Positions 1 through 5,807 of a stretch of DNA of 44,248 nt are shown here, piece by piece. Every line of letters begins with the position of its first letter. The first letter of the stretch is position 1. The DNA is from an uncultured Methylobacillus sp. (GTDB lineage Bacteria > Pseudomonadota > Gammaproteobacteria > Burkholderiales > Methylophilaceae), in the NCBI GenBank assembly GCA_946478965.1, contig CAMLDQ010000008.1, positions 1 to 44,248 of the forward strand. Direction: 5' to 3'. The notes beneath the pieces are model-generated. The model was not told the origin of the DNA. It did no database searches and was given only the letters and a program-made list of their open reading frames with translations. The position numbers and the translations under genes are program-made.

Positions 1-154
1 GATCCACGCTTTCGTAGCGCAGGCGGAAGTCGGTCATCGGCTTGCCCGCCTTGATCGCATCGAGCAGGGTTGCCGGTTCGTCCGCATACGCTGACGTCGC
101 AGCAAAGGCAGTCGCCAGAAGGCTTGCCAGGGTAGTGATACGCAGGGTCGTCAT
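1..154 (-). CDS. Probable outer-membrane porin, N-terminal fragment
   Basis: Only the first 51 codons are inside the window; the gene runs off the left edge. The ATG at 154 is preceded by a good ribosome binding site (AGAGGAA). The first 25 residues form a typical Sec signal peptide with an AYA-D cleavage site. The mature start (LLDAIKAGKPMTDFRLRYESVD) resembles the first beta strand of alginate-export-type or related porins in betaproteobacteria. It follows nrtD by 44 bases on the same strand, so it may be the outer-membrane partner of the importer. The family call rests on about 25 mature residues and is tentative. Confidence 0.5.
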   Translation of the reverse strand, partial: MTTLRITTLASLLATAFAATSAYADEPATLLDAIKAGKPMTDFRLRYESVD

Positions 155-198: not shown

Positions 199-987
199 TT
201 ATGCGGCTTTGGCTTCACGCTGGTACAGGAAGCGGAGCACCTCGCCACGCAGGTGGTGGTAGTGGGCGTTCTCAGCCAGTTCCAGACGGTTGCGCGGACG
301 CGGCAGGTCGACGGCAAGAATTTCGCCGACCGTAGCCGCCGGGCCGTTGGTCATCATCACGATGCGATCGGAGAGCAATACCGCCTCATCCACATCGTGC
401 GTGACCATGATTACAGTGCTGCCGGTGCGGGCTACGATGCCCAGCAGCTCGTCTTGCAGATGGGCGCGGGTGAGGGCATCGAGCGCCCCGAACGGCTCGT
501 CCATCAGCAATACCTTCGGTTCCATGGCCAGCGCGCGGGCGATGCCGACGCGCTGCTTCATGCCACCGGAGATTTCGTTGGGATACTTGAATTCAGATGC
601 GGTGAGGCCGACCAATGCCAGTGCCTCGTGCGTGCGACGACGGAGCGAGGCCTTGTCTTCCTTGTCGCCGAACACGCGTTCGACGGCCAGGTAGATGTTG
701 TCGAAACAGGTCAGCCACGGCAACAGGGAGTGATTCTGGAATACTACCGCACGATCGGGCCCTGGCCCTGCGATTTCGCGGCCGGCGCAGAGCAACACGC
801 CATCGGTGGCCTTCAGCAGGCCTGCGACCAGATTCAACACCGTTGACTTGCCGCAACCCGAGTGGCCGATTACGGAAACGAATTCGCCGTGGCTGATCGA
901 CAGGTTGACATCCTTAAGGGCAGTGAATTTGCCACGCTTGGAGTCGAACACCATGTTGACGTTTTCGAGTTGTACATACTTTTGCAT
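199..987 (-). CDS. nrtD: Nitrate-type ABC transporter ATPase NrtD
   Basis: 262 aa cytoplasmic ATPase that powers import by the NrtB permease. Visible motifs: Walker A GHSGCGKST (41-49), Q-loop Gln84, signature ISGGMKQ (139-145), Walker B VLLMDEP (159-165) and the H-loop His in VTHD (197). It belongs to the nitrate/sulfonate/taurine ATPase family (NrtD, SsuB, TauB). The nitrate assignment comes from the adjoining ANTAR regulator, the long NrtA-type binding protein and the sigma-54 promoter. It starts 5 bases after nrtB ends, indicating one transcript. The substrate could also be nitrite, cyanate or bicarbonate, which share this family. Confidence 0.88.
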   Translation of the reverse strand: MQKYVQLENVNMVFDSKRGKFTALKDVNLSISHGEFVSVIGHSGCGKSTVLNLVAGLLKATDGVLLCAGREIAGPGPDRAVVFQNHSLLPWLTCFDNIYLAVERVFGDKEDKASLRRRTHEALALVGLTASEFKYPNEISGGMKQRVGIARALAMEPKVLLMDEPFGALDALTRAHLQDELLGIVARTGSTVIMVTHDVDEAVLLSDRIVMMTNGPAATVGEILAVDLPRPRNRLELAENAHYHHLRGEVLRFLYQREAKAA

Positions 988-992
988 GACGA

Positions 993-1904
993 TTACTCCT
1001 TAACGAATTTCTTGGCCAGCATCAGCAGCGCATATTCGAGCATCAAGCCGACAAGGCCGATCACGAAAATCGCGATAATGATGGACTCGACCTTGAGGTT
1101 GTTCCATTCATCCCATACCCAGAACCCGATCCCGACCCCGCCTGTCAGCATTTCCGCAGCGACGATGACCAGCCATGCGGTTCCGACGGCCAAGCGTACG
1201 CCGGTCAGGATGTGCGGCAGGATGGCGGGGATCACGATCTTGGTCGCGATCTTCCATTCGGAAAGATTCAGCACACGCGCCACGTTCAGATAGTCGGTCG
1301 GTACGTTGCGTACGCCCTGGGCCGTATTGAGTATCATCGGCCAGATCGAACAGATGAAAATCACCCAGATGGCGGCCGGATCTGCAGCCTTGAACACCAG
1401 CAGGCCGATCGGCAGCCAGGCCAGCGGCGAGACCGGCCGCAGTAGGCTGATAATAGGTCCCGCTACCATGTTTACACCGCGGAAACGGCCGACAAAGAAC
1501 CCGGCGGGAATGCCGATGAGGGCGGCGAGCCCGAAACCAACGCCGACCCGCTCAAGCGATTTCAGCACGTTCCAGCCGATGCCCATGTCGTTAGGGCCGT
1601 TGCTGTAAAACGGATCGGAGAACAGTTCCACCGCCTCTGTCCAGGTGGCGACCGGGCCGGGAAAGTCCGAGCGCTTTGCGGCGATGGCGGACCAGATGCC
1701 AACCAGCAATGCCATGCCGACCGCCAGTGCCAGTACTTGTTTGGCAACCGCGGTCGAGATGGCTTTCCAGTCGATGCTGGAGAACCGGGTAGGTTTAGCT
1801 ACCTTTTCCGATGCGCTAGCGATACGCACTGGAGGTACTTCCTTTAGCTCCGGTTGCACTGCGGTAGCAGTCGGCTCAGTAATTTTCATGGCGACGACAC
1901 TCAT
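993..1904 (-). CDS. nrtB: Nitrate-type ABC transporter permease NrtB
   Basis: 303 aa inner-membrane permease of the BPD_transp_1 family. A charged cytoplasmic N-terminus of about 50 residues is followed by roughly six hydrophobic segments, the first beginning near residue 53 (LALAVGMALLVGIWSAIAA). The cytoplasmic coupling (EAA) loop is recognisable around VARVLNLSEWKIATKIVIPAILPHILTG. It lies 61 bases downstream of nrtA and directly upstream of nrtD, so the three encode one importer. Length fits NrtB/SsuC-type permeases, with a somewhat long N-terminal extension. Confidence 0.87.
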   Translation of the reverse strand: MSVVAMKITEPTATAVQPELKEVPPVRIASASEKVAKPTRFSSIDWKAISTAVAKQVLALAVGMALLVGIWSAIAAKRSDFPGPVATWTEAVELFSDPFYSNGPNDMGIGWNVLKSLERVGVGFGLAALIGIPAGFFVGRFRGVNMVAGPIISLLRPVSPLAWLPIGLLVFKAADPAAIWVIFICSIWPMILNTAQGVRNVPTDYLNVARVLNLSEWKIATKIVIPAILPHILTGVRLAVGTAWLVIVAAEMLTGGVGIGFWVWDEWNNLKVESIIIAIFVIGLVGLMLEYALLMLAKKFVKE

Positions 1905-1965: not shown

Positions 1966-3396
1966 TTAACTATTTGCCTTGATCAACGCGTCCATCGACA
2001 CCTTCATGCTCTGTACCTTGAAGCCCTTCAGGTAATCAATGGGCTTGGTCGGGTCGAAGGGCATGCCGTCGAAGAACTTGTCCGGACCCATGGCGATCGG
2101 TGCGCTCGCCTTGTCGAGCGTCCAGGCGCCGCCATGGCTGCCTTCGGTCTTGTAGTCGATGGTCGGATAGGCAACACCCAATTCCTTGGCGGCTTCGCGA
2201 TAGATTTCCGGGCGGTAGACATCCTCGGCGATCTTCTTGAAGTTGACGGGCTTTTCCATTTGTCCCCAGCGCGCCATCTGCGTCAAATACCAGATGGCCT
2301 GCGAGCGCCACGGGAAGGTGGCGGCGTAGCGGAAGAACACGTTGAAATCCGGCATCTTCTGCGGCCCTTCGGCCTTGTTGTAGATCCAGGTACCGGTCAT
2401 CGAGTTGTCGACTACCGCCGGCGGGGCGTTCACATAGGACTTAGCGGAAATGATCTGCACCACTTCCTTGCGGTTTTCCGCCTTGTCGGCCCACTGGCCG
2501 GCCTCGATCAAGGCCTTGATTGCGGCCTTGTGCGCGTTCGGGTTTTTTTCCGCCCACTCCTTGTTGACGCCAAACACTTTTTCCAGCTTGTTGTTCCAGA
2601 TTTCATGGTTGGTGATCAGGGAGTGGCCGATACCCATTTCCACCGCGCGCTGGTTCCACGGTTCGCCGACGCAGTAGCCGACGATGTTCTTGGCGGCCAG
2701 GTTGGCCACCATTTGCGGTGGCGGAATCACGATCAGACGCACATCCTTGTCCGGGTCGATACCGGCAGAGGCCATCCAGTAGCGGATTTCATAGTTGTGG
2801 GTGGAAACCGGGAACACCATGGCGAAAGTCATCGGTTCCTTGCCGGCCTTCTTGTCGGCGTCGATCACTTTTTTCAGTGCTACGGCGGAAGTCGGTCGCT
2901 TTTTCATGGATTCCGGGTCGGCTTCCATCATGCGGTCGTATAACTCGGTGGAGACGGTAATGCCATTGCCATTCAAATCCATTGCAAACCCTGTGATGGT
3001 GTCTTTGGGCGTGGCGCCTATCCCCAGGGTGGCGGCCAGCGGCATGCCAGCCAGCATGTGGGCGCCATCCAGCTCGCCCAGCGCAACCTTGTCGCGAATA
3101 TTGGCCCAGGATGCTTCCTTGGAAACGGCGACGTCGAGGCCGTGCTTGGCGAAAAAGCCTTTTTCCTTGGCGATGACGATAGGGGTGCAATCGGTCAGCG
3201 GAATGATGCCGAATTTCAGCGTGGTCTTTTCCAGCCCCTCGCTGCCGGCCGCCCAGGCCGATTGGCGCAGTCCCGGGGACACCATGGACAGCAGCGAGGC
3301 TGCTGCTGACATACCGGCCAACTTGATGAAACCGCGGCGTTCGAGGGATTCCGGAATCTGGACTTCAGATTGCCGATGGTCTACTTTCTTATCCAT
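1966..3396 (-). CDS. nrtA: Tat-exported nitrate-type substrate-binding protein NrtA
   Basis: 476 aa periplasmic binding protein. I chose the ATG at 3396 because it follows a strong ribosome binding site (CAGGAGAATTGC) and precedes a clear twin-arginine signal ([10 protein letters not shown], about residues 19-28) with hydrophobic stretch and an AWA-A cleavage site. The mature part starts with [24 protein letters not shown], typical of the NrtA/CmpA/NasF family, and its length is that of the large nitrate/bicarbonate binders rather than of SsuA/TauA (about 320 aa). The long 5' region contains the ANTAR leader, so expression is probably controlled by antitermination. Nitrate, nitrite and bicarbonate cannot be told apart by eye. 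Confidence 0.85.
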
Positions 3397-3430
3397 GCAA
3401 TTCTCCTGTTGAGAGTTTCTAAGTAACCAA

Positions 3431-3490
3431 ATAAAAACGGCGTCCTGCTGGTGACGGAAATTTTTCTCCATCAACAACAAGGACGCCGTT
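3431..3490 (-). terminator. Intrinsic terminator in the nrtA leader
   Basis: On the minus strand an 11-bp perfect stem (AACGGCGTCCT at 3490-3480 pairing with 3446-3436) closes a 33-base loop and is followed by a T-rich run (TTTATTT, 3435-3429). It lies after nasT and 35 bases before the nrtA start. With the two hexaloop hairpins just upstream this is the terminator expected in an ANTAR-controlled leader: transcription would stop here unless NasT binds the RNA. Confidence 0.8.
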
Positions 3491-3502
3491 GCCCTGTTCT
3501 GT

Positions 3503-3550
3503 TCGCCATCACTGGCGATGCGTGCTGCCTGTGAACCCTGCTTTGGGCTC
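3503..3550 (-). promoter_or_regulatory. ANTAR-binding double hexaloop RNA (P1-P2) in nrtA leader
   Basis: Two hairpins lie in tandem on the minus strand, beginning 3 bases after the nasT stop. P1 (3550-3533) has a 6-bp stem GAGCCC/GGGTTC with one G-U pair and the loop AAAGCA. P2 (3518-3503) has a 5-bp stem TCGCC/GGCGA and the loop AGTGAT. Both six-base loops have A at position 1 and G at position 4, the established recognition signature of ANTAR proteins (NasR, EutV, AmiR class). The linker is 14 bases. The terminator stem follows 12 bases after P2. This matches the two-hairpin plus terminator layout of known ANTAR leaders. Confidence 0.82.
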
Positions 3551-3553
3551 GTA

Positions 3554-4126
3554 CTACAACAAATCCGCAGCCTGGATAAGTCTGCTGGCCAACTCTGCCA
3601 GCTTGATGTTTTGGTCCATCGCCTGCTTTCGGAGTAATTGATAGGCTTCATCTTCACCTATCCCCCGTCGCGCCATCAGCAGGCCTTTAGCGCGTTCAAC
3701 AACTTTCCGTTCCGCCAGTTTGGTGTTCGCCAGATCCAGTTGCTGATGCAGATCGCGAAACTCCTCAAACCTTGCGATGGCGGCATCGATAATCGGTTGC
3801 AGCCGATCGGTGCCTAACCCTCCCACTACATAAGCCGAAACGCCCGCCTTGGTCGCTGCCCGAATTTTTTCGGTCTCGCCATCATGCGTAAACATGACAA
3901 TCGGCCGGGGCGTGTCCTGGCAGGTCGTACATATATGTTCCAGCGTGTCGCGGCTTGGCGACTCGGTGTCAATGATGATGACATCGGGTTGCAACTGGGC
4001 CACTGCCTTGTTCAGGTCTACCGTGTTGGAAAGATGGCCGACCACGGTATAACCAGCCTCGGCAAAATATTGCTGTAGCGGGGCGGAACGTTCCAAGTCT
4101 TCATCTACCAGCATCACTCGGAGCAT
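3554..4126 (-). CDS. nasT: NasT-type REC-ANTAR antitermination regulator
   Basis: 190 aa cytoplasmic RNA-binding regulator. Residues 1-120 are a receiver-like domain with the acidic cluster D8-E9-D10, Asp53 and Thr80. The conserved receiver lysine is missing: AYVVGGL has Gly at about 102. Residues 130-190 are an ANTAR helix bundle with the typical ERAKGLLMARRGIGEDEAYQLL core. The ATG at 4126 has a GAGGTG ribosome site. NasT proteins are usually held by a partner, NasS, and released by nitrate or nitrite; no NasS gene is visible here. The target is almost certainly the hairpin pair directly downstream, controlling nrtABD. Confidence 0.9.
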   Translation of the reverse strand: MLRVMLVDEDLERSAPLQQYFAEAGYTVVGHLSNTVDLNKAVAQLQPDVIIIDTESPSRDTLEHICTTCQDTPRPIVMFTHDGETEKIRAATKAGVSAYVVGGLGTDRLQPIIDAAIARFEEFRDLHQQLDLANTKLAERKVVERAKGLLMARRGIGEDEAYQLLRKQAMDQNIKLAELASRLIQAADLL

Positions 4127-4160
4127 GATCCACCTCGAAATTTTCTTTCAAGCAGATCAA

Positions 4161-4176
4161 AGCAACTGCCATGCCA
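4161..4176 (-). promoter_or_regulatory. Sigma-54 promoter of nasT
   Basis: The minus strand reads TGGCATGGCAGTTGCT, against the sigma-54 consensus TGGCACG-N4-TTGCW, with invariant GG (-25/-24) and GC (-13/-12) at correct spacing. The predicted start is near 4150, 24 bases before the nasT ATG, leaving room for its ribosome site. Sigma-54 control fits nitrogen-limitation expression. Confidence 0.72.
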
Positions 4177-4239
4177 AAGTAAATAAATCTATTTATTTCA
4201 GATGGATAAGTGGATTTATAACGGGGGGTGAGAGACCGG

Positions 4240-4284
4240 AGCGAAGTGCGCATGCACCAAGAAAATCTGCATGCGCACTTCGCT
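4240..4284. repeat. Perfect 17-bp inverted repeat between nasT and cheZ
   Basis: Arms AGCGAAGTGCGCATGCA (4240-4256) and its exact reverse complement (4268-4284) are separated by 11 bases. It lies 33 bases beyond the cheZ stop and upstream of the nasT promoter. No T-run follows on either strand, so it is not a standard intrinsic terminator, but it may end or stabilise the cheZ transcript or act as a protein-binding site. Confidence 0.75.
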
Positions 4285-4289
4285 GGTGC
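4275..4289. promoter_or_regulatory. NtrC-like binding site
   Basis: GCACTTCGCTGGTGC matches the NtrC dyad GCACC-N5-GGTGC at nine of ten defined bases. Its centre is about 132 bases upstream of the predicted sigma-54 start of nasT, a usual enhancer distance. It overlaps the right arm of the 17-bp palindrome, so the match could be partly coincidental. Confidence 0.45.
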
Positions 4290-4316
4290 GGTTGCGCGAA
4301 GTTAAGAGGAAAGGAG

Positions 4317-4928
4317 TTAGAAGCCCATCGAGGCCAGCAAATCGTCGACCTCGTCCTGCCCATTGAGGCTGTCCGAGGCATGGATGGCAGGACCGGCAGT
4401 CAGTCCTTCCGTGGGGATGAGCGAATTTTTGCTGTCCGGCGCTTGCTCGCGCAGGATATCGAGCAGGATTTTTTCAATTTCAACGGCGGCGTCGAGAATC
4501 TTGTTGACCATCTGTCCGGCGACGTCGCGGAATTCCTGTGCTTCCATGATTTGCAACAGATTGTGATGCAGCGCTTCCTCGGCGGCAGCGATTTCCCCGA
4601 GCCGAGACAGCGTTTCCTGGATCAAGGCATGTGTCGACAAGTCCTGTGCGTCGCCGAGGCGCTCGACCAGTTCGGCGCATGTGGCGCGCGAGCGCTCGGT
4701 TAATGGCAGCGATCCTTCCACTGCGCTGATGGTCCGTTCCGAGGCGTCGTGCATGGTCTGGTCGATGAAGCTCAGGCGGTCGCGTGCATCCGGCATGGTG
4801 GCAGCGGATTGCTGCAGGCCCTTGGCGTGGCCAAGCTCCTTCAGGAGGCGGTGCAGCTTGGCTGCGGCGCGGCCGATATTGTCGACCTTCGCTTGGGGCA
4901 GGGCGTGTTGTTGTTTGCGGGCTGGCAT
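4317..4928 (-). CDS. cheZ: CheY-P phosphatase CheZ
   Basis: 203 aa, close to the E. coli length (214). The diagnostic motif is QEFRDVAGQMV (131-141), corresponding to QDFQDLTGQ of E. coli CheZ; Asp135 and Gln139 align with the catalytic Asp143 and Gln147. The C-terminus DEVDDLLASMGF is the amphipathic CheY-binding helix. Long helical stretches before this fit the CheZ four-helix bundle. CheZ dephosphorylates CheY-P and so resets the flagellar switch. The ATG at 4928 has a GAGGAA ribosome site. No other chemotaxis gene is in the window; it lies 37 bases after the DUF3426 gene and could be the last gene of that operon. Confidence 0.88.
   Translation of the reverse strand: MPARKQQHALPQAKVDNIGRAAAKLHRLLKELGHAKGLQQSAATMPDARDRLSFIDQTMHDASERTISAVEGSLPLTERSRATCAELVERLGDAQDLSTHALIQETLSRLGEIAAAEEALHHNLLQIMEAQEFRDVAGQMVNKILDAAVEIEKILLDILREQAPDSKNSLIPTEGLTAGPAIHASDSLNGQDEVDDLLASMGF

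Positions 4929-4965: not shown

Positions 4966-5807
<842 letters not shown>

Follow-up and report, generated by a model that had tools for sequence, protein, structure and literature searches.

A putative NasT antitermination leader between nasT and the nitrate importer genes of an uncultured Methylobacillus

In the 44,248 nucleotides of an uncultured Methylobacillus sp. analysed here (the window), the gene of a NasT-type regulator precedes the genes of a nitrate importer, the minus-strand order being cheZ, nasT, leader, nrtA, nrtB, nrtC and the 5' end of a porin-like gene. A sequence-only reading had proposed that NasT controls the importer from within one transcript, through an ANTAR-type RNA leader downstream of its own reading frame. 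From the sequence comparisons presented below, the region is very probably a NasT-dependent transcription antitermination leader inside its own operon. NasT leaders, ANTAR RNAs and the NalA/P11 leader as such are already known.

The locus and its leader

The nasT gene (3554..4126, minus strand, like all genes below) encodes a 190-aa protein with a receiver (REC) domain (PF00072, 39.9 bits) and an ANTAR domain (PF03861, 78 bits), the REC plus ANTAR architecture of NasS-NasT systems by Pfam. It was the sole match among the window's open frames to an ANTAR profile that includes this NasT, and Pfam, checked on four window proteins, concurred; this upheld the claim that the only ANTAR protein of the window is encoded immediately upstream of the leader. 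The nrtA gene (1966..3396), preceded by the putative ribosome site AGGAG (3407-3403), encodes a 476-aa nitrate-binding-protein family member (PF13379, 325 bits) with the twin-arginine motif ERRGFIK, which matched NrtA of PDB 2g29 at E 1.1e-76; no NrtA-specific NCBIfam model matched it. The nitrate ABC permease NrtB (993..1904; TIGR01183, 232.5 bits against a cut-off of 209) and ATPase NrtC (199..987, 262 aa; TIGR01184, 334.7 bits against 291.8) both exceeded their NCBIfam cut-offs, and the three genes are predicted to supply the exported binding protein, permease and ATPase of an NrtABC importer. NrtC lacks the NrtA-like C-terminal domain present in PDB 8w9m chain C (682 aa, of which residues 263-615 match NrtA). 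The porin-like gene (1..154) is truncated by the window edge and gave no Pfam match as a fragment; by eye it resembles the gene 3' of nrtC in Methylobacillus sp. MM3 (L193), in which a porin, a siroheme synthase and a nitrate reductase are among the genes on the same strand 3' of nrtC (named by eye, without profile search). The cheZ gene (4317-4928) lies directly 5' of nasT, and a similar gene (by eye) has the same place in MM3. Elsewhere in the window, the hexamer GCTCTG is repeated nine times without mismatch at 5508-5562 in a zinc-ribbon/DUF3426 gene, the coding strand giving a Pro-Glu repeat.

Three hairpins and a terminator were found on the minus strand of the nasT-nrtA gap. P0 (3533..3550, GAGCCC-AAAGCA-GGGTTC, 6 bp) begins 3 bases after the nasT stop codon (3556-3554) and is followed by P1 (3503..3518, TCGCC-AGTGAT-GGCGA, 5 bp). 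Both six-base-loop hairpins were present where the sequence-only reading had placed them, as was the 11-bp terminator stem with its T-run, 12 bases (3502-3491) after the second of them. This intrinsic terminator (3436..3490) comprises the stem AACGGCGTCCT (3490-3480) and AGGACGCCGTT (3446-3436) plus an inner stem, and the T-run TTTATTT (3435-3429) directly follows. A further hairpin, P2 (3480..3495, AGGGC-AACGGC-GTCCT, loop 3490-3485), had been missed. As the loop and 3' arm of P2 form the 5' arm of the terminator, P2 and the terminator are predicted to be mutually exclusive. A scan of the window for A1/G4 hexaloops running into a terminator arm returned one minus-strand site, P2, and none on the plus strand.

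The two A1/G4 hexaloops expected of ANTAR RNAs are thus those of P1 (AGTGAT) and P2 (AACGGC), with the caveat that the minimum-energy fold adds an A-U pair to P1 and turns its hexaloop into a GUGA tetraloop. P2 also overlaps the terminator, as in the published ANTAR layout, described in the available text of PMC8934654 as having the second hexaloop embedded in the terminator, and the P1-P2 linker of 7-9 nt lies within the 2-25 nt that an ANTAR RNA screen allowed (PMC8164766, in the part available). Judged by sequence, P1 and P2 are the published dual-hexaloop layout, and P0 is an additional upstream hairpin present in many, not all, relatives. The proposal of a complete ANTAR layout was therefore correct as to the type of leader and incorrect in pairing AAAGCA with AGTGAT. 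The 136-nt leader had a folding energy of -61.9 kcal/mol (z -7.5 relative to 200 shuffled sequences), and when the RNA was folded only through P2, all three hairpins were present together. P2 alone (-5.0 kcal/mol) is much weaker than the terminator (-36.0 kcal/mol), so NasT would have to act during RNA synthesis.

Covariation was assessed in an alignment (A2) of 20 leaders of the direct nasT-leader-nrtA type (the window's and those of 19 relatives), leaving out two near copies (L005, L008) and one locus at a contig end (L020). Paired cells amounted to 72% for P0, 99% for P1, 100% for P2 and 97.7% for the terminator, and 6/6, 4/5 and 4/11 pairs of P0, P1 and the terminator, respectively, varied on both sides, counts that kinship among the leaders may inflate. 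Column 135 covaries with both of its alternative partners, column 122 in P2 (GC 10, AU 9, GU 1) and column 178 in the terminator (CG 10, UA 10), which supports both alternative structures. When partners were slid by 1-3 columns, pairing fell from 88% to 28-50% for P0/P1/P2 and from 98% to 38-76% for the terminator.

Upstream of nasT, a sigma54-type promoter match, TGGCATGGCAGTTGCT (4161..4176, minus strand), has 11 of 12 positions of the -24/-12 consensus that we assumed for scoring and lies 50 nt before the start codon. A box GCACTTCGCTGGTGC (4275..4289), matching the consensus GCACYNNNNTGGTGC that we take to be NtrC-type, is 99 nt upstream of it. The proposed sequence of events begins here. 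Under nitrogen limitation, NtrC and sigma54 would initiate transcription before nasT, and RNA polymerase would transcribe nasT and then the leader. By default the strong terminator would form, transcription would stop and nasT mRNA alone would be made. Active NasT would bind P1 and P2 at their hexaloops while these emerge from the polymerase; with P2 occupying the 5' arm, the terminator would be blocked and the polymerase would continue into nrtABC and, judged from MM3, further into nitrate and nitrite reductase genes. Speculatively, P0 might provide one more site for binding, or ribosomes stopping at nasT might mask it. The anatomy of P1, P2 and terminator, their covariation and the position of the promoter match are features of the sequence; NasT binding, termination, NtrC control and nitrate dependence we infer by analogy with NasT leaders elsewhere, as described in the available parts of PMC3795266 and PMC5424462; the features observed here that bear on NasT binding are gene order and conservation.

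NasS and the nitrate signal

No NasS (cytoplasmic, without signal peptide) was seen in the 44-kb window. A NasS profile, A1, built without the nearest relatives of the window's NrtA, was applied to 21 genomes. NasS was found in the two controls (G020, G021), and 17 of the 19 others held a single family member, NrtA; the remaining two (G013, G016) had extra pieces that are part of another transporter operon. Among 187 genomes from the family to which Methylobacillus caricis belongs (Methylophilaceae), 83 had a family match, 62 of them together with a strong NasT and 21 without one. A single member was found in 59 of the 62, a count that disregards the weak second-operon pieces of G013 and in which the only match of G090 is a fragment. 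The strong NasT genes are the best 66 matches, two of them with an internal stop (G069, G096), and 62 of the 66 had a family member at most 1.5 kb downstream; four weak pieces, two in G013 (second transporter operon) and two in G073, were excluded from this pairing. A signal-less member was present in 3/62 genomes (G133, G149, G134), each time behind nasT and a leader, and in G133 and G149 it follows a second nasT. N-termini were read directly at some loci and elsewhere judged by frame length, which indicates room for a signal and not the signal itself. In the seven genomes with the window-type NrtA, that protein was the only match in six, and G240 had four weak pieces besides. A separate NasS was thus not found in most Methylophilaceae genomes searched, on at most the ten best candidates scored per genome; this limit or incomplete assemblies could hide a NasS. 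The open-licence literature searched described no NasS-less nasT-leader-nrtABC operon, no NasT leader with three hexaloops and no exported NasS-type protein.

The switch might accordingly work without reporting nitrate, NasT being on by default or answering another signal such as c-di-GMP, so that the operon would follow nitrogen limitation only. We regard this as possible but unlikely. The rarity of a signal-less NasS-like protein among the 62 genomes with strong NasT and a family member speaks for it, as does c-di-GMP binding by the NasT of Pseudomonas putida, reported in the available text of a review (PMC12830290). Against it, the terminator is maintained by covariation, which would be needless in an always-on switch, and some of the genomes may be incomplete.

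The window's NrtA is itself unusual. AccC of the window is 96% identical to that of MM3, and the identity is 88% for NrtC and 38% for NrtA. NrtA instead shares 69-76% identity with proteins from six of 399 genomes drawn from the order, and these six are more distant by AccC (78-80% where measured; G350 gave no match). As the nearest relatives of NrtA sit in genomes more distant by AccC, nrtA alone may have been replaced in the window's organism. The protein scored 539 bits against a NasS profile whose set includes its nearest relatives, compared with 439, 373 and 326 bits against three NrtA profiles. In a leave-one-out control with the first eight members of each of the four sets (19 members in the NasS set; 12, 13 and 8 in the NrtA sets), 32/32 scored best against their own set. 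Profile A1 still gave the window's NrtA 509 bits, and gave full-length NrtA proteins of Methylophilaceae and Marinobacterium 344-375 bits. In a tree with long branches and warnings, it grouped with L119 (99/93), within a group of signal-less NasS-like proteins and gamma-type NrtA. The window's NrtA is similar to NasS in sequence; similarity is claimed here, not descent.

The reverse combination, an NrtA of the ordinary beta type without a visible signal, was observed in G133, G149, G134, L153 and L156. In four genomes (L117, L118, L120, L153) such a protein adjoins nasT, also behind the leader. The signal-less beta-type NrtA of L153, behind nasT and leader, and that of L156, at the end of nrtABC, may have turned into NasS-like sensors independently.

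Proteins exported by the Tat pathway fold before they leave the cytoplasm, so the NrtA precursor could meet NasT there. It is conceivable, if rather improbable, that the switch senses nitrate through the binding protein of the importer itself, in its precursor form. The best score of a Tat-motif NrtA on a NasS profile is a hint in this direction, and the signal-less beta-type NrtA beside nasT in four genomes is another. Nitrate-free precursor would bind and silence NasT, and nitrate-bound precursor would release it. As the precursor would be synthesized only after NasT permits read-through, the loop would be self-limiting, and the gene of the sensor would lie behind the switch that it controls. 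If true, an exported binding protein would be one part common to a transporter and a gene switch.

Hairpin pair, promoter and transcript

At least 80 loci of NasT relatives, one genome per species, were compared. The leader and nrtABC directly follow nasT in Methylophilaceae and in some lineages besides; in others nasS lies between nasT and the rest, or at the operon end. Two metagenome bins titled Chitinophaga pinensis and Bordetella parapertussis (L019, L022) carry a near-identical nas locus of betaproteobacterial type, and their names are doubtful. P2 with a terminator was present directly 3' of nasT in 31 relatives by a detector that also matched 7/81 antisense strands and a few sites inside genes (L004, L033), and by eye in three more (L014, L024, L043). 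L035 lacked P2, the loop of L038 starts with G, and L020 and L036 were unreadable at this place. When stems of 4 bp or longer were required, 31/41 loci including the window (30 if L043, whose hand-set anchor was misplaced, is dropped) had a P1-type hairpin in the expected zone and 19/41 a P0-type hairpin, the corresponding frequencies at control positions being 1.7% and 3.7%; the P2 anchors of L014, L024, L038 and L043 were placed by eye. The P1 loop of L002 is GATGCA, so that A1 is not absolute among relatives. P0 was unclear in L003, L004 and L073 and absent at that place in L012 and L028. The comparison of nasT-nrtA gaps that the sequence-only reading had called for thus gave conserved P1 and P2 and a less conserved P0.

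Another view of the gap is that its strong terminator, immediately 3' of nasT, simply closes the nasT message, and that nrtABC has its own promoter. Eighteen other loci do carry a sigma54-type match (score of at least 10) between nasT and P2. In the window, however, the 32 nt between the end of the T-run (3429) and the nrtA ATG (3396) leave scarcely any space for a promoter, neither the gap nor the last 250 nt of nasT has a sigma54 match of 9 or more, a search of 3380-4350 gave no sigma70-type promoter, and one arm of the terminator is common to a conserved A1/G4 hexaloop. A promoter in the window's nasT-nrtA gap was therefore rejected, and a plain terminator is very unlikely. That P0 and P1, both A1/G4 hexaloop hairpins, form the NasT-binding pair with the terminator separate was likewise rejected as highly improbable, for although P0 exceeds its chance frequency and covaries where present, neither hairpin overlaps the terminator, so that the two alone could not exclude it, several relatives have no P0 or an unclear one, and the conserved pair is P1 and P2.

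For the preferred reading, an antitermination leader within a nasT-nrtABC message, the promoter evidence in relatives is pertinent. Sigma54-type scores of 10-12 were found before nasT in 20/20 Methylophilaceae-type loci (L001-L018, L020, L073), and no match of 10 or more occurred in the readable gaps of 19 such loci. A 9/12 match within the 3' end of nasT was present in 8 of the 19, the window not among them, and might provide a second transcription start in some relatives. In the window and in 18/25 relatives scanned, a GCAC-N7-GTGC box lies between -130 and -168 relative to the nasT start. With one mismatch tolerated, the number of such matches in the window does not exceed chance: GCACYNNNNTGGTGC had one exact match in the window and two with one mismatch allowed (2.73 expected), and TGGCAYRNNNNTTGCW, a pattern fitted to the promoter site, likewise one and two (2.55 expected). 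It is their place and conservation that carry the argument. With a sigma54-type promoter before nasT, none found in the gap and a T-run 32 nt before the ATG, nasT and nrtABC are probably on one transcript; this agrees with the earlier proposal that NasT, the likely ligand, controls nrtABC inside it. Between cheZ and nasT, an inverted repeat with 16-base arms (GCGAAGTGCGCATGCA and TGCATGCGCACTTCGC, 4241-4283) overlaps the NtrC-type box and could be a terminator without a T-run, or part of the enhancer.

Model searches and known systems

A covariance-model search, as had been suggested, was run with a model trained on 23 leaders, the window's not among them. Its sole match in the 44 kb (limit E 10) was this leader (3527-3406, minus strand, 48.4 bits, E 2.2e-11). 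An earlier model, R1, with the window in its training set, found a leader before nrtA in 7/7 non-training genomes with the window-type NrtA (E 7.6e-15 to 1.2e-5). With model R2, applied to the 150 best candidates of each genome, the nasT leader was the top match in 16/16 Methylophilaceae genomes, 13 of which had given training rows. It was the single site in 14 of these, G001 and G057 having a second, weak match; in G240, from another family, the one match lies before its nrtA.

Leader-like matches were also observed at other genes. G314 has two leaders 3' of nasT (L149, 8682-8799 and 10165-10288), one preceding a porin-like gene, the other nrtA. Weaker matches lie directly before a nirB-like gene (by eye) in L152 (1720-1838, 24.6 bits) and L150 (1343-1457, 21.5 bits), which suggests a wider NasT regulon in these genomes. 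The top match of G064 (L160, 1501-1605, 49.5 bits) lies before a formate/nitrite-transporter-like membrane protein (by eye), not at nasT.

No Rfam family matched the leader at gathering cut-offs. P11 (RF00625), which we take to be the same RNA as NalA, aligned over its full length on the right strand with 18 bits against a cut-off of 70 (E 0.038). Unrelated families below their cut-offs had similar E-values (rli56 0.061, mir-3660 0.15), and P11 matched none of six relatives at E 0.05, so the likeness is supported by the common P2 core GGACAAAGGCGUCC, seen in relatives and, by eye, in the Rfam P11 consensus.

The NalA/P11 leader of the Pseudomonas nirBD operon is the closest known leader. It is NasT-dependent and has a sigma54/NtrC promoter, according to the available text of PMC12830290, and shares this type of leader and promoter, as well as the P2 core, with the window. 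In Pseudomonas, however, transcription from this promoter begins with the leader, and the operon downstream encodes a reductase; in the window the leader occupies the nasT-nrtA gap, the promoter match precedes nasT, an extra hexaloop hairpin is present and the Rfam P11 match is below cut-off. For the Paracoccus denitrificans nasA leader, the part of PMC5424462 available gives about 200 bp, hairpins HI and HII and an NtrC site before nasT. A NasT-type ANTAR protein is encoded upstream of the leader there too, but with nasS in between; the window has no visible nasS, and its target is an ABC importer. In the eut RNA bound by EutV of Enterococcus faecalis, the second of two A1/G4 hexaloops lies within the terminator, as with P1 and P2 here; the signal, ethanolamine via the kinase EutW, differs. 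The small RNA EutX carries an additional single hexaloop beside the dual motif, so the third hexaloop of the window has a precedent of a kind (both from the available text of PMC8934654). Klebsiella NasR, with the nasF leader, likewise controls a nitrate operon by ANTAR antitermination in response to nitrate (PMC3369931, in the part available), but has its own nitrate-sensing domain, absent from NasT.

The locus provides a covariance-backed example of P2/terminator exclusivity in NasT leaders, and covariance models detect such leaders genome-wide where Rfam P11 stays below its cut-off. It would also be a case of NasT control in which a search of relatives failed to find the usual nitrate sensor in most of them, which makes nitrate sensing by the ANTAR protein a direct question in cultured Methylobacillus.
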